In this document: in pieces, positions 4,883 to 28,287 of the stretch
Numbering within the stretch: position 1 is the first letter of the stretch
Layout: every line of letters begins with the position of its first letter
DNA from: Prevotella melaninogenica
Lineage (GTDB): Bacteria; Bacteroidota; Bacteroidia; Bacteroidales; Bacteroidaceae
Length of the DNA: 64,000 nucleotides
Direction: 5' to 3'
Assembly: GCF_018128065.1 (NCBI RefSeq)
Contig: NZ_CP072360.1
Span: 1,678,501-1,742,500 of the forward strand
Made by a program: the position numbers and the translations under genes
Notes under the pieces: model-generated
Database searches by the model: none
The model's input: the letters and a program-made list of their open reading frames with translations, nothing else
What the model was told of the DNA's origin: nothing

Positions 4883-7618
4883 TTAGAACTTAATGCTTAC
4901 TCCGATAGAGTAAGTACGATAAGGGGGATAGGTGCGCTTGTCATCAATACCTAAGGTGTTATCCACTACATAGCTATTAATAATCGGTGTCAAACCACTA
5001 TAGCTTGTAATTGTTGCGAGGTTATTGATGCTGAAAGATACACGTAATGAGCTGATATATTTGTTTCTAACGGGTGTGTTCCAACCGATTGTAAGATAAT
5101 CGAAGTTCAGATAATCACCACGTTCCAACCAATAGTCAGTCACGTTTTGATCAACGATATTGCGTGCTGGAGCTTCTGCAAGGACGTTATAGTCTGGGAA
5201 ATTCGACATATTCAGATAAGAAAGGGCTGTACCATTAAATATCTTATGACCAAAAGCACCATTCATCTGCAAAGAGATGTCGAAGACTTTGTATCTGAAA
5301 CTTATGTTTGAACCCAAAGTCATCTTTGGTGTAGCCTGTCCTGCAACATATCTGTCACCATGGTCACTGAGGTCGATTACGTTATCATTATTCAAATCTG
5401 CAATGTCGTATTTGTTGTGTCCATGTCCGTTGTCAACGATTCCTTTGCAATGAGGAAGATAGAAAACACCTAACGGTTGACCTACTATCTGATAAATAAT
5501 ATCATTATAACCGCCATGGAAACCGGCACCATTCATGCCACCGATAGGAGTAATATCTGATGCTGTCATATCCCTTCCATTGAGTTTGCCATTGAGGGAG
5601 AGGAGTTTATTCTTTTGCCATGCCATATTAATGTTGACATTGAGTTCCATGTCTTTCTTTGAGATAGGAACGATGCCTATGCCCAACTCAAAACCACTAT
5701 TAGACATTGAACCGATATTTGCCAGCAGCTTATCAAAGGCAAAAGTTGGTACTGGTACGTCATATTCATAAAGCATATCAGTTGTCTTAGAATAGTAATA
5801 CTCTGCTGTGAGCAATAATCGATTTTTGAAGAAACCGAGGTCAGCACCAATATTAAAGGTGCTACGTGTTTCCCAACGTAGGTCAGGATTACTATTTCGT
5901 AGGGTACCCATTGTGACCGTTGGTGTTCCATTATATGGGATTAAACCAACCGGAATATACTGTTTTAAAGTCAGATAAGAACTGATTCCACCAAGGTTTC
6001 CTGACTGACCATAGCCTGTTCGTAAGTTCAGAAGACTAATGCTCTTATTGTTACGTAGGAAACTTTCTTTCTTCATATCCCAAGTCGCTGAGATAGAAGG
6101 GAAGATGCCCCATGTATGGTCTTTGCCAACCATTGACGAACCATCTGCACGTGTTGTCAGATTCAGTGTGTATCGGTCGAGTAGTGTGTAGGTAAGTGTA
6201 CCCATAAAAGAGGCAAGACTTGGGTCAGCATAACTACTACCAGTTCCTCCATAAGGACGGTCAGAAGCAGCCCCAAGATTGTCATAACCAAAGTAATTGT
6301 TGGTTAATCCCTTTACTTGTGTCCAAAAAGCTGCTATCTTTTTCTTCTGATATTCAGCAAGAATGGTGGCAGATAAATTGTTAATCCCCCAACGATATTT
6401 CCAATCAAGAGAGATGTTACCTAACATATCTTCGGTCTTTCGTTCTCCTCTATATGCTAATCCTTGCGCCCATACCCATGTCGGAGCAAATCGTCCGTTC
6501 TCCGTTGAGGTGTAAGAATAGGAACCTAAGGCTGCTAACTGAAGGTTATGTGTTAGCTGTAAGGACAACTGCAGATGTGAATTGAACGTAAGATTCTTTT
6601 CATCGTTACGCTCAAACAGCAATGGTTCTGTCGGTCCTATCTGTGATGCATTGCCATTCCTCTGCCAGCCGTTTCCTGTTTTGTGGAATGGGAGTGTTGG
6701 ATTCATTGCGGCGATAGAATAGGAAAGTGCCTGAAGATCGAATATCTTTTCATCTTGTTGGGATGATCCGAATACACCAAAGTCTATCTTTAACTTCTCG
6801 TCAAAGGCAAACTGCGAGATATCCAACTTAGCCATGAAGTTATTGTAATCCTTAGTTTTTATAACCGTCTGTCCACGCACATAGCCTAATGAGGCACGAT
6901 AGTTGGATTTGTCACTACCTCCACTAAAAGCCACATGATGTGAATTGACAAATCCTATTCGTACTATTTCTTTCTGAAAATCAGTGTCATAACCTTTGTC
7001 AACGTAATCTAACCCTAAAGCTTTTGCAGCACTAATATACTCTGCTGCATTCAGCATACGAAGACGTTTGTATACTTTATCAAAGCCTACTGCTCCATCA
7101 TAATAAATCTGGAACTTACTACCATTTCCACGCCTTGTCTTTACCTCAATAACACCCGATGCTCCTCGTGAACCATACTTAGATGTTTCTGACGCATTTT
7201 TAAGAATAGTAAAGCTCTCTATATCAGCTGGGTAAATAGTAGATAGCGTTGCCAAATCACTTGAAACACCATCAATGAGGACCAGAGGGTCGTTACCACC
7301 AGTAAGTGATGTGGTACCACGAACGCGCACACTCGTCAACATTGCCATACGGTCCTGACCATTCGTAACGACATTTACACCGACAGCTTGTCCTGAAAGG
7401 GCATTGATAGCAGAATTAACTAAACCTTTATTCATCTGCTTTTCACCCACTTTTGCCATTGAGCCGATAACAGGAAGGGTGTCATTGACGAGGAATAATG
7501 GCTGCCTTTGCTCTGTAGTGATCGCTTTATGTCGTCTCTGTGCATTGGCAACATCTGTAACACCAATTACCAAAAGGCAGCAAACAAGAGAGCGGGTTAG
7601 AATGTATTGTCTATTCAT
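4883..7618 (-). CDS. SusC/RagA-family TonB-linked outer-membrane transporter, short N terminus
   Basis: TonB-dependent transporter that imports the substrate captured by the adjacent SusD. The start is the ATG at 7618 (MNRQYILTR...), 12 bp inside a TTG-initiated frame; it gives a signal peptide ending ANAQ. The plug domain is clear (VRVRGTTSLTGGNDPLVLIDG and GSRGASGVIEVKTRRG), followed by a 22-strand-type barrel ending in Phe (SIGVSIKF). At 911 residues it is shorter than most SusC proteins, which usually exceed 1,000. The carboxypeptidase-like regulatory domain normally found between signal and plug is missing; only about 45 residues separate them. It is transcribed away from the GH2 gene. 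Confidence 0.93.
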   Translation of the reverse strand: MNRQYILTRSLVCCLLVIGVTDVANAQRRHKAITTEQRQPLFLVNDTLPVIGSMAKVGEKQMNKGLVNSAINALSGQAVGVNVVTNGQDRMAMLTSVRVRGTTSLTGGNDPLVLIDGVSSDLATLSTIYPADIESFTILKNASETSKYGSRGASGVIEVKTRRGNGSKFQIYYDGAVGFDKVYKRLRMLNAAEYISAAKALGLDYVDKGYDTDFQKEIVRIGFVNSHHVAFSGGSDKSNYRASLGYVRGQTVIKTKDYNNFMAKLDISQFAFDEKLKIDFGVFGSSQQDEKIFDLQALSYSIAAMNPTLPFHKTGNGWQRNGNASQIGPTEPLLFERNDEKNLTFNSHLQLSLQLTHNLQLAALGSYSYTSTENGRFAPTWVWAQGLAYRGERKTEDMLGNISLDWKYRWGINNLSATILAEYQKKKIAAFWTQVKGLTNNYFGYDNLGAASDRPYGGTGSSYADPSLASFMGTLTYTLLDRYTLNLTTRADGSSMVGKDHTWGIFPSISATWDMKKESFLRNNKSISLLNLRTGYGQSGNLGGISSYLTLKQYIPVGLIPYNGTPTVTMGTLRNSNPDLRWETRSTFNIGADLGFFKNRLLLTAEYYYSKTTDMLYEYDVPVPTFAFDKLLANIGSMSNSGFELGIGIVPISKKDMELNVNINMAWQKNKLLSLNGKLNGRDMTASDITPIGGMNGAGFHGGYNDIIYQIVGQPLGVFYLPHCKGIVDNGHGHNKYDIADLNNDNVIDLSDHGDRYVAGQATPKMTLGSNISFRYKVFDISLQMNGAFGHKIFNGTALSYLNMSNFPDYNVLAEAPARNIVDQNVTDYWLERGDYLNFDYLTIGWNTPVRNKYISSLRVSFSINNLATITSYSGLTPIINSYVVDNTLGIDDKRTYPPYRTYSIGVSIKF

Positions 7619-21747: not shown

Positions 21748-21871
21748 GTCTTAGTAACTTTTAAAAATAGCTACAGGGAAAAAGATAAGATGAGGTTGAA
21801 ATATTGACAATGCCACATAGCACTTGAGTTGATATATACCAGCCCAAGTGCCATGTATTGAATAGATACTT

Positions 21872-22402
21872 TTAATTTTCAGGTAAACCTACTTCTGGAT
21901 TGAATGTTACAGAGACTTTTTTATTCTGGGCAATATTTACCTGTCCATTATATGCAATATTAGATTCATCATATTTCATGTTTGGTCTGGCATAGTACAC
22001 TTTCAGGTTATAATTACCAGATGTCAATTTGCTAATCTTAAAATTAACGTCGTATTTGCAAATGCAATCGGCAAGTGCATCAAGTACATTATGGTACACG
22101 ACAAGGGTAATCTGATTGTTTTGATTAGCGATGTTCACATAAATATTTTTTACGGCACAGTTGGCTTTCACGTCTTCCAGCATACATTGAACTATTCCGT
22201 CTTTGCCCAGCTCCATGCTTAAAGTTGCCGGCACAATGTTGTTTTCAGCATAGGCATCGGGACGTGTCTCTGTTGGAGAGAGTGTTAACTTGCAAGTAGA
22301 ATTTGCAACATCATAAACTCTTAATGGCTCAAGAGCTACCTTCTCTGAGGAACATGCAGATAATCCACAGAAAAGGATTAGGCTGTAAAATACTTTTTTC
22401 AT
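21872..22402 (-). CDS. Small lipoprotein, unknown function (island, gene 5)
   Basis: A 176-residue protein with a type II signal and lipobox LSAC (Cys17), so it is probably anchored in the outer membrane. The rest is beta-rich with regularly spaced strands (TLSMELGKDGIVQCMLEDVK, QITLVVYHNVLDALADCICK) and no recognised domain. Four mature cysteines besides the lipid Cys are visible. It lies 84 bp downstream of a second lipoprotein gene on the same strand and is probably in the radical SAM operon. Function is not known. A surface or periplasmic partner of the sigma-fused barrel is one possibility. Confidence 0.75.
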   Translation of the reverse strand: MKKVFYSLILFCGLSACSSEKVALEPLRVYDVANSTCKLTLSPTETRPDAYAENNIVPATLSMELGKDGIVQCMLEDVKANCAVKNIYVNIANQNNQITLVVYHNVLDALADCICKYDVNFKISKLTSGNYNLKVYYARPNMKYDESNIAYNGQVNIAQNKKVSVTFNPEVGLPEN

Positions 22403-22486: not shown

Positions 22487-23014
22487 CTATTCAATCAACT
22501 TCCCGTGTTTTTTGAGTATTGAGAGAAACTCTCCCCATTCTGCCGCTCTTTTTTCTTTTGCTTTTTGAATGGCCTTGTTCTCTTTAACATATTGACTATT
22601 GTCCTCAATATTGCGTGGGTAACAGTCACTCAGATAAAACTTGCCAGATTCTGAAACTAATGATAAGTCTGTGAAGATTTGACTATTGAAAGATGACACA
22701 AACGTTGAGATATGGAGTAGAACCTTACCATACGAATGTATTTCTATGTTACGATAAATGGGAAAGAGCAGACTTGTCGGCTCAAAATCTTGAAAAATAA
22801 TCTCACGGGTCTGCGCGTTGAAAGACTTGATGTTGTCAAGTGTAAAGAGATAGGGGCTTGAAGCGGCTCTTGTCATTCGGGCTGTCCCTATAGCAAACAA
22901 TTCCGTTTTCGATGCTTGCACTGTGGGAGTTGAAGCAGACTCATCTTCATTGCTGCAACCAATAAACAGCAACGAGAAGATGAACGCCTGTAATACACAA
23001 AAATACCTTTTCAT
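22487..23014 (-). CDS. Small lipoprotein, unknown function (island, gene 4)
   Basis: A 175-residue protein whose signal peptide ends in the lipobox FIGC (Cys20), followed by SNEDES, typical of exported Bacteroidetes lipoproteins. The C-terminal third is charged and helical (KENKAIQKAKEKRAAEWGEF). No domain is recognised. The ATG lies 23 bp after the oxidoreductase stop, so the two are almost surely co-transcribed. Confidence 0.75.
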   Translation of the reverse strand: MKRYFCVLQAFIFSLLFIGCSNEDESASTPTVQASKTELFAIGTARMTRAASSPYLFTLDNIKSFNAQTREIIFQDFEPTSLLFPIYRNIEIHSYGKVLLHISTFVSSFNSQIFTDLSLVSESGKFYLSDCYPRNIEDNSQYVKENKAIQKAKEKRAAEWGEFLSILKKHGKLIE

Positions 23015-23037: not shown

Positions 23038-24117
23038 TTATAATATGTGGTCGTCAATTATGTTCATATACTTCTTTATTTCTGCCATTATGGAATAAAC
23101 ATGCTTAACACTTTCCAAGCAAAAGGCATGATTATCCTCGCATCTGTTTTCAACCATATCGGCAAACGCTTGAATCTCCGAGAAGAACCCTTGTGACACA
23201 ATCTGGTTATTCCCAACCGTTGGTACAAAACCATTCCTTCCGTATAGGCTGACAACGGTTGCATTATTTTGGAAGACCTTTTCCAAAGGGATTCCCCATA
23301 TAGCAGAGTGTCTTGGGGAAAAATCGAGTCTTTCCATTCTGTCCAATACATATTGTCCTTTGTCCGTACTAATACTTAATTGTTCCTGTGCATCCTGCCA
23401 AGAGTAATCTGTTGATAGTTCCAACATTCCTACTATATCTTGGTGTTCTAATATAAGGAATAAGGTCTGTCCACCATCTCTACTGAGAGTAATATCCAAA
23501 CCCTTTATCTTTGCCTCTCCAAAAAGGAATGTTACATAGTCAAGAGGATGGATGAACAGGTCAAGCAAAGTATCTCCTTCAGGGTATAATCCTGTCAGAT
23601 AGCGATAATGGTAATGCCGTTTGCCATCATCTTTCAATCGCTTTTTCAGAATTTGAGTGGCAGGGGCAAAACGTCTTTGCAGTCCGACAACGATATGCTG
23701 TGAGCCATATAGTTTGATAGTATCAGTCAAAGACATTAGTTCCCTTTCATCCTTACAGGGTGGCTTCTCTATGAACAAGGATTTACCTGCTTTTATAACT
23801 TCAGTTGCAATATGAAAATGTGAATGTGGATTAGCTGCCACGAAGACTCCTGAGATTGTATTATCAAGCAGGATATCTTGTAAAGAAGTTGTTCCTTTGA
23901 TCCCCTTGTACTTTTGAGAAATCAGATAGGCTTTCTTCTCCGAGGTACAGCAAATGTATTTCAGTGGTAGCTGAAGATACTGTATAACGGGCAGCAGGTT
24001 GTTTGCACAATGATTGCCAAACCCCACAAGAGCATACTGCTGTGTGTAGGTATATTGCAGTTCTCTCATGCTGCGTATGCGCCTATATCTGTCTATAATG
24101 TTATCTAAATATCCCAT
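23038..24117 (-). CDS. Gfo/Idh/MocA-family NAD(P)-dependent oxidoreductase (island, gene 3)
   Basis: A 359-residue cytoplasmic enzyme. An N-terminal Rossmann fold begins YALVGFGNHCANNLLPVI. The family motif EKP (Glu117-Lys118-Pro119 in GKSLFIEKPPCKDE) carries the catalytic Lys. A mixed alpha/beta substrate domain follows (GLQRRFAPATQ, then LFIHPLDYVTFLFGEAK with the usual His-x-x-Asp). Relatives oxidise or reduce sugars, inositols and sugar nucleotides. It starts 5 bp after the radical SAM stop, so the two are translationally close and probably act on one pathway. The substrate is unknown. Confidence 0.88.
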   Translation of the reverse strand: MGYLDNIIDRYRRIRSMRELQYTYTQQYALVGFGNHCANNLLPVIQYLQLPLKYICCTSEKKAYLISQKYKGIKGTTSLQDILLDNTISGVFVAANPHSHFHIATEVIKAGKSLFIEKPPCKDERELMSLTDTIKLYGSQHIVVGLQRRFAPATQILKKRLKDDGKRHYHYRYLTGLYPEGDTLLDLFIHPLDYVTFLFGEAKIKGLDITLSRDGGQTLFLILEHQDIVGMLELSTDYSWQDAQEQLSISTDKGQYVLDRMERLDFSPRHSAIWGIPLEKVFQNNATVVSLYGRNGFVPTVGNNQIVSQGFFSEIQAFADMVENRCEDNHAFCLESVKHVYSIMAEIKKYMNIIDDHIL

Positions 24118-24122
24118 TTTAG

Positions 24123-25190
24123 CTATGCTTTTATTTGCTTGAAATGTTTCTTATAGGTGGTTTGCCTATTGCTGGTCCATTGATACTTCCCATAAAACAA
24201 CTCTATCAGCCGTTTGGGGATTATTCTTTCTAAATTTCTTAACAGGATAATGTCATATTTTCGATGATAGTTGATCCAGCATTGATTGCATTCTTTGGAG
24301 TACTGACATTGAATTTTGCACGTATTCCTTGAATTGAATATCTCATCAAGCGTATTCTTATGAATATTACCCAAGGTTACATCTAAATTCTGGCACAAGG
24401 GAACGTCTCCATTAGAATGGATGACCAATTCACTGAAAATACTATGACACCGCAGTCTCAGTCTGTTATTTTTCCACTCGTCATACAAAGCTACAAAGTC
24501 AAAGTTCTCATATGTTTGATGTATGGAAGAGGGTATCTGGCTGATGAAATCAGCATCATTGGATTCCATTAAATCTTTGGTTGTGTCAAAGAATGACATT
24601 GTGCTGTAAATGCCAATACGTACATCAATGTTATATTGTTTGGCACAATCTATGACATGCCTCATATCCTCAAACGAGTTCCATGGAGAAAGACAGAACA
24701 TTAGGGAGATAGGCACGATGTCTTTACATGTTTCTATAACCTTAATCACCTTGTCATATCCATCTCTCCCACGCATATAGCGATAGGTTTCTCTATTGCC
24801 ATCAAGTGATATATATAGATGTTTGGGATGATGATTCTTTACGGAAGAAATTATCTTGTTCACTGCAAGGCAGTTGGACAGCAATGTATAGTTTGGGTGG
24901 TTAGTATCAAACCATCCTAATATCTTGTCTGCTTCGGGATGGAGGACAAACTCACCTCCTTCCAAGCCGACCATCGTGCGTTTAGTTACACATTTGCTGT
25001 TCATTATTTTGATGATGTCATCTAAGCTGAGATTTTCTATAGGTTTCTTCCAAATGGAACAGTGCTTGCAACGAGACTGACAGCTTGTTGTGGAATATAT
25101 CATCAGGGATGTGAGTTCCTTGTGCTGTCTGCGTACTACATTGTTGACAAATACAATTCCATTGTGGATGTAGTCATAAATACTGTACAT
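24123..25190 (-). CDS. Radical SAM / SPASM domain protein (island, gene 2)
   Basis: A 355-residue enzyme. The 4Fe-4S site is CQSRCKHC (Cys37, Cys41, Cys44; CxxxCxxC) with SAM-binding strands after it (GLEGGEFVLHPE in place of GGGEP). A C-terminal SPASM-type cluster region has NGDVPLCQNLDVTLGNIHK, then CKIQCQYSKECNQC, which can hold one or two extra clusters. SPASM enzymes modify peptides, proteins or carbohydrates. No precursor peptide is seen in the operon, and with the Gfo/Idh neighbour a sugar or small-molecule substrate is as likely as a RiPP. Upstream lies the promoter motif shared with the sigma gene. Confidence 0.88.
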   Translation of the reverse strand: MYSIYDYIHNGIVFVNNVVRRQHKELTSLMIYSTTSCQSRCKHCSIWKKPIENLSLDDIIKIMNSKCVTKRTMVGLEGGEFVLHPEADKILGWFDTNHPNYTLLSNCLAVNKIISSVKNHHPKHLYISLDGNRETYRYMRGRDGYDKVIKVIETCKDIVPISLMFCLSPWNSFEDMRHVIDCAKQYNIDVRIGIYSTMSFFDTTKDLMESNDADFISQIPSSIHQTYENFDFVALYDEWKNNRLRLRCHSIFSELVIHSNGDVPLCQNLDVTLGNIHKNTLDEIFNSRNTCKIQCQYSKECNQCWINYHRKYDIILLRNLERIIPKRLIELFYGKYQWTSNRQTTYKKHFKQIKA

Positions 25191-25220: not shown

Positions 25221-25250
25221 AAGAGTAGAAAACTACTAAAAGACTGCACT
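25221..25250 (-). promoter_or_regulatory. Putative sigma-dependent promoter of the radical SAM operon
   Basis: On the minus strand AGTGCAGTCTTTTAG (25236-25250), 9 nt, ACTCTT (25221-25226). The same two boxes with the same spacing occur before the sigma gene at 27027-27056. It lies 30 bp before the radical SAM ATG. Confidence 0.65.
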
Positions 25251-25285: not shown

Positions 25286-26983
25286 TTACCAAGTAAGCCG
25301 CAATCCGAATGGTACTGTTATGATGAACGGATGCTCTGTGCGGTAGGTTTCAAGGCCGCTGCCATTCCCGAAGTAATAGAACATATTAGGTTCTAAATAC
25401 AGACTGAAAGGCTTGAATAGCCTATACTGAACACCGATACCTAAGTTCACAGACCATTGATAACGTGGCTTGATGTCACCCTTTAACGTGTAGGACGAGT
25501 CAGACGTTATGATATACTTCTTATCAAGTGAACTGTGAACTGGCATCTCGAATGTCACTCCACCGGTCGTATAGGCATTGAATCGTCCCTTGCTCCATAT
25601 ACGATAGGTCAATCGCAATGGTATGCCCACATAATCAATCTTCTGGGTCTTCAACAAGGTCGCACCATGAAACTCACTCTCAAAATCAGACTTCATTCTT
25701 GTGTAAGTCAATCCCGTGCCAAAAGTCCAATGGGAACTTAGTTGCTTGTTGAGCGACAAACTAAAGGTTTTGGGGCGGTAGTGGTGCGCCTTCTCACCTA
25801 AGGAAGCGTTGCCTTCTGTTGCATTATTCAGTGCTATCCATGACATTTTTGCCCTCTCGACAGAATCCATCAGTGCATTGTTCCGAACTAAATAATTTAC
25901 ATAATCATCCCATGTATATAATTTGGCCGCAGCCCCACCATTAGCGTAATCTACTACTGATAGGTAGTTCAAATTGGACATGGCTCCATTTGCACCGGCA
26001 TTAGATGAATAACCCAAATTGAATGTCCACGGATACTTCTTCTTATTGCAGACATTGAAGTTCTTTCTTTCATTCAATGCTATCATCTTATCTTGTGGTG
26101 TCTGTGGAATGCAGTATAAAGAATCGTTTGTTCCGATACCTATAGCCAAATGTTTTTGCAGGGAATCCACATTAAAGGGTAATGCTCGTTGTTCCGTTAT
26201 AGCACTGTCTGTTGATACTTGCAAAGCAATATTTCCTTCAGGGACAATCGCACCGGCAGAACCTCTTCCTGCATTACCAGAGATACTTGGCGAGGTAGAA
26301 TATCTTGACTTTTCTTTCTTCAGAGCTCCTAATCCTTTTTGCACATATTTTGATCGACTCTTATGAGTGTTTGTAGCAGTAGGTTCGTTATCGGAAGTCT
26401 CAACAGTTTTATCTCTCGTAGCGATATATATATAAACTGGTATAAGAATTGGAAGCAAGAAGAGCATCCAATAGTTAATCAACATTGCACGCAATGTTTT
26501 CTTTGCCCTGAACAACTGGGAAGAAGAACTGTGCGGATTGATGCCGAGCTGTTCTCCTATCTCCTTGTGGGAAAGACCTTCTAAGACTGAGAGCTTGAAA
26601 ACTTCACGATTCCCTTCTGGTAAGGACTCTATTGCTGACAATAATAGTCCGAACTCTATCTTTTTCTGTTCCTCACATGCTGCTTCCTGAATTTCTATAT
26701 TCAAGCAAGATAAGGGGGTATGGCTTCTTTTTTCTGTGTTTTGGATATATTTTAAGGATAGATTCCTTACGATTGTTATCATCCAACCTTCCAATTTTGA
26801 TTCATCTTTCAAATCTTGGATAGACATGAAGATTATAATAAATGCATCATGCAAAATATCGTGAGCTGAATTATCATCTTTTACATAATGCCGACATACG
26901 CCTAAAAGTCTATTAGCGTATGTCGTATAGAGTTCTCCGAGGGCTTCCTTATCCCCATTTTTGCAAGCGTCAATCTGTATCAT
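25286..26983 (-). CDS. ECF sigma factor fused to inner-membrane helix and outer-membrane beta-barrel (island, gene 1)
   Basis: A 565-residue fusion. Residues 1-80 are sigma region 2 (LYTTYANRLLGVCRHYVKDD, HDILHDAFIIIFMS, LEGWMITIVRNLSLKYI). Residues 110-166 are region 4 with the helix-turn-helix GLSHKEIGEQLGINPHSSSS. One hydrophobic segment follows (about 171-188, LFLLPILIPVYIYIA), flanked by Arg and Lys. A polar, low-complexity linker of about 125 residues could cross the periplasm. From about 318 to the end there are alternating amphipathic strands of an eight-stranded-type barrel, ending in FGLRLTW with a terminal aromatic. The chain could therefore touch DNA, span the inner membrane and sit in the outer membrane. 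ECF factors normally end near 170-190 residues. No anti-sigma gene is adjacent. Confidence 0.85.
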   Translation of the reverse strand: MIQIDACKNGDKEALGELYTTYANRLLGVCRHYVKDDNSAHDILHDAFIIIFMSIQDLKDESKLEGWMITIVRNLSLKYIQNTEKRSHTPLSCLNIEIQEAACEEQKKIEFGLLLSAIESLPEGNREVFKLSVLEGLSHKEIGEQLGINPHSSSSQLFRAKKTLRAMLINYWMLFLLPILIPVYIYIATRDKTVETSDNEPTATNTHKSRSKYVQKGLGALKKEKSRYSTSPSISGNAGRGSAGAIVPEGNIALQVSTDSAITEQRALPFNVDSLQKHLAIGIGTNDSLYCIPQTPQDKMIALNERKNFNVCNKKKYPWTFNLGYSSNAGANGAMSNLNYLSVVDYANGGAAAKLYTWDDYVNYLVRNNALMDSVERAKMSWIALNNATEGNASLGEKAHHYRPKTFSLSLNKQLSSHWTFGTGLTYTRMKSDFESEFHGATLLKTQKIDYVGIPLRLTYRIWSKGRFNAYTTGGVTFEMPVHSSLDKKYIITSDSSYTLKGDIKPRYQWSVNLGIGVQYRLFKPFSLYLEPNMFYYFGNGSGLETYRTEHPFIITVPFGLRLTW

Positions 26984-27026: not shown

Positions 27027-27056
27027 AAGAGTCTATTTGCTCTAAAAGACTGCACT
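27027..27056 (-). promoter_or_regulatory. Putative autoregulated promoter of the sigma-barrel gene
   Basis: On the minus strand AGTGCAGTCTTTTAG (27042-27056), 9 nt, ACTCTT (27027-27032), 43 bp before the ATG. Both boxes and the gap are identical in layout to 25221-25250, while the 9-nt spacers differ. That is what is expected of a -35/-10 pair read by one sigma factor. Confidence 0.65.
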
Positions 27057-27569
27057 TATTTTTATAGATTTTCTTTATTTTAACTTTTGATAACTTTAAA
27101 AGGAACATACAGACATATTATGCTACTTCGAAAATCACCTTACAAAGGTACGAATATAATAACAAATATGCTTTTATTGAAAGATTATAAAAAGCAATAG
27201 TCCGTTTAATTTTGTGATTTGCGAATCTTTCGTCCCTAAGCCAACAGGAATTGTGACAGAAAGAAAACATGGCAGGTCTCTGAAAAAGAGATGATTTGGT
27301 AACCAAATGTAACATAATAAAATCGGCTATCTCATTGATATTCAGCAAGCTTATAGATGTAAAAAAACAATAAAGTTTATGCTGATAACCAACTTGATTA
27401 GCCGATATATGAGGCTCTGCAAAGCAGCTTTATCTTCATTACTTTAACAAAGTAAACTACTGTGTCGTAATAATTTGTAAACAAGAAAGTAAAGATTTTA
27501 GAAGTAATAGAAGCTTGACGGAGTGAAACTTATTATGGCAAGAGTTTGTCCAGAGTGTTCCGTACTTTG

Positions 27570-27630
27570 GTGTTTATGGTTAGCACGTCTTGTGCTCAGT
27601 ATTAGCACGAGGCGTGCTAACCGTAAACAC
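27570..27630. repeat. Long hairpin of the GTGTTTAC/AGCACG repeat family
   Basis: Arms 27571-27596 (TGTTTATGGTTAGCACGTCT...) and 27604-27629 pair at 23 of 26 positions around CAGTATT. The ends GTGTTTA/TAAACAC match the repeats at 46300 and 53464. Confidence 0.6.
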
Positions 27631-27758
27631 AATGTGTGATAATAGTTGTAAGTCACATAAAAAAGGACTTGTAAAAGCAAGATAATAGGCAGAAAACGGA
27701 TACTATTCAGCCTTGCTGTGTAAGACCGAGTGTGAAGTAGTATATATACAATCTGAAA

Positions 27759-27843
27759 GTTGCTGTCACTCCTATCACAACAAATTATGCTGTAAGTAAT
27801 TAGTTATGAGTGCTTTGCTAAAAGTGTTAAAACTGACAGCAAC
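27759..27843. repeat. 85-bp TGCTGTCA element, copy 2
   Basis: GTTGCTGTCA (27759-27768) and TGACAGCAAC (27834-27843) bound an element of exactly the length of copy 1 (21221-21305), 105 bp after the stop of merR copy 2. Confidence 0.7.
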
Positions 27844-27948
27844 TGAAAACAAAAATAAAACAGGGGAAATAAGGAAACGAAAACGTTCACGATAAATATA
27901 AAGAATAGTATGCGTTTTCTGTCGTCTTATCCTCGCTGCTAATAAGCC

Positions 27949-28287
27949 TTATACCAATCCGTCTAATTGTTTCTTAAGATCTTTCAGCTGATCACGCACA
28001 GAGAAGAGGGTTTCCATAACCTTTTGGCTCTTGTCAGCACCACTACGATTCTCCTGCAACATCTTGCGGGCAGCAGCAATCTTAAAGCCACGCACCTTGA
28101 CAAGATTGTAAATAACCTTTATCTGTTCAATGTCTTTCTCCGTATATTGACGTACACGATTGCCCGTCGTCTTAGGACGAAGGTGTGGGAACTCGGTTTC
28201 CCAATATCTCAACAGACTCTCCGTAACGTTAATCTGCTGTGCCACTTCCTTGATAGAATAATACAGTTTGCGCGGATTCTCTGCCAT
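27949..28287 (-). CDS. MerR-family transcriptional regulator, copy 2 (probable original)
   Basis: 112-residue MerR-type regulator with the same winged helix (KEVAQQINVTESLLRYWETE) and C-terminal coiled coil as copy 1. It stands divergent to alaS with a 178-bp gap, which suggests this is the native position. The target is unknown. MerR proteins of this length without an effector domain often respond through partner proteins or act as simple repressors. Confidence 0.9.
   Translation of the reverse strand: MAENPRKLYYSIKEVAQQINVTESLLRYWETEFPHLRPKTTGNRVRQYTEKDIEQIKVIYNLVKVRGFKIAAARKMLQENRSGADKSQKVMETLFSVRDQLKDLKKQLDGLV

Follow-up and report, generated by a model that had tools for sequence, protein, structure and literature searches.

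Among the described systems closest to the protein analysed here are the Dma1/Das1 and Dma2/Das2 pairs, each consisting of an ECF21 sigma and a dual-membrane-spanning anti-sigma with a transmembrane (TM) helix, a disordered tether and a C-terminal barrel, according to the passages of PMC13088901 that deal with them. The same source describes Dma3 of Bacteroides thetaiotaomicron (the bt_2778-2779 locus) as a Dma protein with its own sigma as N-terminal domain, about which "very little is known", and its passages on Dma3 name neither a promoter nor a target (PMC13088901). PMC10434189 annotates BT2778 as a sigma-70 family factor and, in a species comparison that took in Prevotella intermedia, gives it as limited to B. 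thetaiotaomicron among the species compared. In P. vulgatus, the M0N98_03760-61 genes encode an ECF sigma and an anti-sigma whose C-terminal end is predicted to be a barrel; as reported in the relevant part of PMC9308784, they are induced by an envelope-attacking toxin, and their output includes longer O-antigen. That system is a split pair, whereas the protein considered here is fused.

A single-chain precedent comes from Pseudomonas putida, where IutY, an ECF243 fused sigma/anti-sigma, is described as being released by Prc and RseP (PMC8999054, PMC5411451), with variants that carry periplasmic residues needing RseP (PMC5411451). On these accounts, the release of a sigma from its own TM helix has an experimentally tested precedent in IutY, in view of which an earlier note's remark that normal ECF factors are free was too broad (PMC8999054, PMC5411451). 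The protein analysed here resembles IutY in joining sigma, TM helix and periplasmic part in a single chain (PMC8999054, PMC5411451), but IutY is described as sensing through a separate outer-membrane receptor, IutA (PMC5411451). The present protein instead has its own barrel and a disordered linker. IutY is not known to carry a barrel of its own.

Architecture and distribution of the fused protein

The window, by which we mean the whole 64,000-nucleotide stretch of Prevotella melaninogenica DNA that was analysed, carries at 25286-26983 on the minus strand a single intact frame of 565 residues, with the following parts.

25286..26983, minus strand: fused sigma-TM-linker-barrel gene, 565 aa
26735..26932, minus strand: sigma region 2 (residues 18-83)
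26492..26647, minus strand: sigma region 4 (residues 113-164), Pfam Sigma70_r4_2
26417..26473, minus strand: transmembrane helix (about residues 171-189), from hydropathy and conservation, a continuous helix in the models
26030..26416, minus strand: disordered periplasmic linker (about residues 190-318), pLDDT below 50 at 191-314
25289..26029, minus strand: outer-membrane barrel (residues 319-565), OmpA-like, C-terminal Trp

The earlier note had proposed that sigma, TM helix, linker and barrel lie in one chain, and Pfam, structure models and hydropathy bear this out: as predicted from its sequence, the fused protein is a single chain of these four parts, and structure prediction of the full chain places a barrel after residue 318 that spans residues 319-565 and ends in Trp. 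Pfam matches the protein to sigma-70 regions 2 and 4 with no region 3 match listed, which is the domain pattern of an ECF sigma, and lists no additional domain beyond the sigma and barrel parts. SigW and sigmaE chains are the sequence matches of the sigma part. Region 4 is modelled with low confidence in both structure models. The TM helix, which carries prolines at 178 and 182, is placed directly C-terminal to region 4, and the helix leading from region 4 into it is predicted as unbroken. Within the fused family, regions 2 and 4 are the most conserved parts, with 35% and 50% of their columns at least 90% conserved; the barrel reaches 23% and the linker, with 3 of 107 counted columns, 3%.

A homology search for the same domain order, the check that the earlier note had suggested, found plentiful relatives. 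In the same GTDB family, 97 of 399 genomes, in 16 of 30 genera, match the fused profile (E up to 1e-70). The whole profile, taken as a match that starts no later than position 9 and reaches at least position 555, lies in one stop-free stretch in 78 of the 97; three have one stop (G443, G393, G447), and the remaining 16 are partial or in two pieces, although nine of these keep one open frame of 496-576 residues. Of 7991 proteins scored in the first protein search, 763 matched at E up to 0.001, and the best 120 of the 763 are 88-98% identical to the window protein. A P. intermedia protein, P0065, is 89% identical to it, although the species comparison of PMC10434189 gives BT2778 as limited to B. 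thetaiotaomicron. Fused genes also occur outside that GTDB family, in G221 (two copies) and as named Parabacteroides and Muribaculum proteins. They are rarer in Bacteroides (genus g2), where they were found in nine of 99 genomes and are broken in two of the nine (G059, G365). Genome G511 holds two full fused paralogues (C131, C69), which share 77% and 64% identity with the window protein.

Frames of 590-650 aa formed a second class in genus g2 that resembled divergent fusions; the three that were translated (L160, L163, L168) are ordinary sigma and Dma genes, two ORFs having been counted as one open frame.

Among the loci from named genomes the frame is uninterrupted in 24 of 27, with L017 and L019 broken and L024 truncated at a contig end. 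Although some relatives are broken (L017 between sigma and TM helix; L019, L090, L094 and L095), the 24 uninterrupted frames, together with the 78 genomes uninterrupted across the whole profile, rule out an assembly or annotation artefact in which a missed frameshift or misassembly joined two genes; neither such a frameshift nor an absence of the fusion from all relatives, which the earlier note had regarded as fatal to its proposal, was found.

The broken copies are of several kinds. In L017, which comes from Alloprevotella sp. oral taxon 473 and shares its genome with L069, an in-frame TGA at 6514-6516 falls exactly at the junction of sigma region 4 and the TM helix, leaving a natural free sigma adjoining a TM-barrel frame with both copies of the motif described below retained. 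Given this stop, the tether is not universally kept. In L019, L090, L094 and L095 a frameshift or stop disrupts the fused gene within the TM helix, the linker or the start of the barrel, and in L101 the sigma frame contains a stop and is not followed by a barrel; decay or sequencing error may account for these five.

Relation to split sigma/Dma pairs and mosaic structure

The genome that contains the window also holds a Das/Dma-like split pair (L029, G000 C2 912673-914443), in which the sigma has 183 aa and its partner, which bears a TM helix and barrel, 422 aa. The sigma domain and barrel of the window protein are 35% and 30% identical, respectively, to the halves of this pair. A sigma-domain tree was built from 31 fused rows (99 fused ORFs reduced to 30 at below 80% identity, plus the window's own copy, L028), 23 split rows (reduced from 27) and five other ECFs of the genome; nine "split" rows were broken fusions and are excluded from the split counts. 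The fused rows form one clade, with support of 100/100, that groups with the split-pair sigmas and apart from the five other ECFs, as members of the ECF21 lineage do if this is recognised by grouping with sigmas encoded beside Dma-type proteins. The fused sigma domains probably derive from among split sigmas, although with long outgroup branches in this tree the nesting among split sigmas is less certain than the grouping with them. In the barrel tree, which was built without outgroup rows, a single fused clade was not recovered and three split rows lie on a very long branch inside; a constraint that keeps the fused rows together is not rejected (AU p 0.373). The simplest reading of these comparisons is a single fusion event.

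The fused and split proteins differ at the point where the cytoplasmic part meets the membrane. In Dma proteins, 46-62 residues precede the TM core (23 distinct TMs), whereas across 63 distinct TMs of fused proteins the sigma profile, which ends at residue 170 of the window protein, and the beginning of the TM core are -3 to +5 residues apart, within a range searched from -3 to about +30. This position of the TM core indicates that the fused proteins have lost the anti-sigma domain. The window protein shares with Dma proteins a cytoplasmic domain, a TM helix, a disordered tether and a C-terminal barrel, as in the Dma1/Das1 and Dma2/Das2 systems outlined in PMC13088901, but it lacks their N-terminal anti-sigma domain: a sigma stands there instead, with no room before the TM helix. 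Unlike the two-protein Dma/Das pairs, it is one chain without the domain of 46-62 residues. The earlier note had held that a sigma in that position would be a different arrangement, and so it is when set against the Dma anti-sigmas, whose anti-sigma domain the sigma displaces; it is not new, since Dma3 as described in PMC13088901 has an N-terminal sigma. By that description the layouts are the same, with the sigma N-terminal in a Dma-like chain, and by this domain order the window protein is placed with the Dma3-type sigma-fused proteins. Two further features also separate the classes. A TM proline is present in 54 of 63 fused proteins (absent in 9) compared with one of 23 split proteins, and a C-terminal Trp ends 97 of 99 fused chains compared with none of 27 split ones.

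The two halves of the fused gene show different similarities to other loci. Codons about 351-551 (window 25330-25933) are 94-100% identical at the DNA level to L005, L006, L008-L010 and L023, and the 300 bases 3' of the gene are 87-97% identical to the same loci, whereas identity to them over codons 51-300 is 56-80%. The contrast between the barrel and codons 51-300 points to recombination that swaps the barrel together with the operon; barrel and operon seem to be passed between species separately from the sigma half. Similarity to L001, L004 and L019 ends near window positions 21763-21870 and 27146-27201. Between the latter cassette edge and a MerR-type gene (27949-28287) lie some 750 bases (27201-27949) with no frame of at least 80 aa listed.

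A promoter-like motif and the downstream operon

Comparison of the DNA before and after the fused gene brought up a repeated motif, which is listed here together with the genes that follow the fused gene.

27044..27055, minus strand: motif GTGCAGTCTTTT upstream of the fused gene, the T of TGCAGTC lying 71 bases before the ATG
25238..25249, minus strand: second copy of GTGCAGTCTTTT, in the gap that separates the fused gene from the one after it
24123..25190, minus strand: radical SAM/SPASM protein (Pfam), 355 aa, family f1, downstream of the fused gene
23038..24117, minus strand: GFO/IDH/MocA oxidoreductase (Pfam), 359 aa, family f2
22487..23014, minus strand: putative lipoprotein, 175 aa, family f3, lipobox-like LFIGC read in the sequence
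21872..22402, minus strand: putative lipoprotein, 176 aa, family f3, lipobox-like LSAC read in the sequence

The 99 fused loci comprise 78 that are distinct and have sufficient upstream DNA. At the start of these genes, counted between -300 and +150 relative to the longest-ORF start, 71 of the 78 loci carry exact TGCAGTCTTT on the coding strand and 77 carry it when one mismatch is allowed, L104 being the sole locus without it. On the reverse strand the corresponding counts are 0 and 2 of 78, and dinucleotide shuffles give 0.00 and 1.55. Several longest-ORF starts fall inside the motif, and the counted range was therefore run 150 bases into the frame: in L005, L006, L008, L010-L012, L015 and L025-L027 the start ATGCAGTCTTT is the motif itself (M-Q-S), and 10 of 24 rows of alignment A4 begin inside the motif, with ATGCAGTCTTT read as M-Q-S. 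These longest-ORF N-termini starting MQS are probably wrong. With up to one mismatch allowed, only 42 of 65 loci have the motif strictly 5' of the longest-ORF start, and 54 of 65 have it within 260 bases after the gene; this set, like the 67-locus operon set used below, contains repeated genomes (e.g. L022/L192, L020/L195).

Across 115 distinct motif instances GCAGTC is almost invariant, in part by construction, as the instances were selected by up to one mismatch. The motif flanks are 36-37% identical over 90 pairs of genera g2/g3 loci with Prevotella-type loci, and conservation of the motif is therefore not mere shared ancestry of the region. An automatic search for a -10 element found no clean one, the alignment settling on an A/T-rich stretch further downstream; a loose ATC/ACT core can be seen by eye as part of a -10. 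Taken together, the motif is probably the -35 element of the fused sigma and part of its own promoter.

The window's own genome holds three copies of the 12-base RTGCAGTCTTTY, two at this locus and a third antisense inside a 670-codon frame, and in a control restricted to the window with one mismatch allowed the motif was unremarkable, with 4 hits against 1.72 expected, and as many in 12 of 100 shuffles. Among genomes of the same genus, 17 with the fusion hold 85 copies of the 12-mer and 16 without it hold 38, while the reversed pattern occurs 29 and 28 times, respectively. The excess in genomes with the fusion is two to three copies per genome, which matches the number of local sites. Motif copies away from the fused-gene locus are near chance, and a genome-wide regulon past the locus is unsupported by these counts.

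Split loci carry a related element. None of 27 has TGCAGTCTTT exactly, and the one-mismatch upstream hits in six of 27 are all of the TGCAGTATTT form, which differs from the motif of the fused genes by one base. Exact TGCAGTATTT precedes five of 24 distinct split sigma genes, all of genus g2 and mostly about 41 bases before the start. In the 150 bases upstream of the L029 sigma gene, no match to TGCAGTMTTT has fewer than three mismatches.

The fused gene is the head of a same-strand gene run. Across 67 loci, the window included, families f1, f2, f3 and f4 are present in 37, 37, 34 and 16, respectively, and the three f4 members tested are methyltransferases. Single-locus cargo includes a glycosyltransferase 2 and a PMT_2 protein in L174 and an acyltransferase in L177. 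Of the two putative lipoproteins in the window, that at 22487..23014 has no Pfam hit at E 0.01 and that at 21872..22402 yields a sub-cut-off hit only. Most of the downstream genes would fit a role in surface glycan or lipid modification.

A literature search with the motif strings found no related description among the papers listed. The literature listed on sigma fusions and membrane-bound sigmas likewise yielded no description of the fused family beyond Dma3, although the PNAS 2024 Dma1 paper and the ECF re-classification paper may hold an earlier one. Relative to the literature searched, the motif, the gene order, the loss of the anti-sigma domain and the exchange of modules appear to be new, as we have not seen them in print.

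Readings of how the sigma is controlled

We favor, with a probability of roughly 0.6, a tether-and-release mechanism in which the sigma is off while doubly anchored, is freed by two cuts, and then drives its own gene and the operon. The elements of this reading that sequence comparison establishes are the single chain, the single clade, the predicted loss of the anti-sigma domain, the TM proline, the motif and the gene order. With the chain anchored in both membranes, region 4 would be pinned to the inner membrane and the sigma kept off. The barrel would sense a disturbance of the outer membrane, exposing the linker to a site-1 protease, after which a site-2 protease would cleave the proline-containing TM helix and free the sigma. 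If the motif serves as a -35 element, the sigma would then drive its own gene and the operon behind it. The output would be one or a few cell-surface-modifying enzymes, in this window putatively the radical SAM/SPASM protein, the GFO/IDH oxidoreductase and the two lipoproteins.

By analogy with IutY, we infer that the tethered sigma is released by proteolysis. Candidate proteases in the genome comprise one M50 site-2-type match and five S41 matches, but the M50 and S41 families are also present in 14 and 10 of 14 control genomes, so their presence says little about release. More tentatively, at somewhat less than even odds, the locus may be a one-gene circuit without any anti-sigma, in which the sigma is held off solely by being stretched between both membranes via its own barrel, its own promoter TGCAGTCTTT stands at just two non-coding sites here (its own gene and one swappable surface-modification operon), and barrel and cargo are exchanged as modules between species, the whole being widespread.

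It is also conceivable, if rather unlikely, that the sigma is active while tethered, recruiting polymerase and local promoters to the membrane, with the barrel altering its accessibility or position and no cleavage taking place. Membrane-bound activators that work while tethered are known, for example ToxR and CadC. Predicted targets at the gene itself would make coupling at the membrane geometrically possible, and the continuous helix predicted from region 4 into the TM segment is compatible with it. The sigma nevertheless ends within a few residues of the TM helix, which would leave little room for core polymerase, and IutY, the one experimentally characterised case, is described as active in the form of a released sigma domain (PMC8999054, PMC5411451).

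We consider it improbable that the motif is recognised by a different sigma, such as the split one encoded in this genome, with the fused protein serving just as a target or in some other role. The closely related TGCAGTATTT carried by split sigma genes of genus g2 would fit such cross-reading, as would the raised expression of the dma3 locus in dma1 and dma2 mutants of B. thetaiotaomicron noted in PMC13088901. This reading sits poorly with the distribution of TGCAGTCTTT, which accompanies the fused gene in 77 of 78 loci and is exact in none of the 27 split loci, and with the conservation of regions 2 and 4, which is higher than that of any other part of the fused family.

Very improbable is a sigma-like domain that is an inactive decoy holding something else, with the protein acting as a Dma-type anti-sigma in the strict sense: the family is indeed named for anti-sigma factors and Dma3 is counted among them where PMC13088901 introduces it, but the fused protein has no anti-sigma domain, regions 2 and 4 exceed barrel and linker in conservation (35% and 50% against 23% and 3% of columns at the 90% level), and the gene retains its own promoter-like motif.

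The motif makes Dma3-type proteins a testable system in which a putative promoter, an operon and a sigma fragment are all named, and activation by release or in the tethered state is now decidable with a reporter. If the tether-and-release mechanism is true, one molecule could couple sensing at the cell surface to the activation of a small gene set, and the shortest path from surface to promoter would be one polypeptide, across many Bacteroidota genomes.
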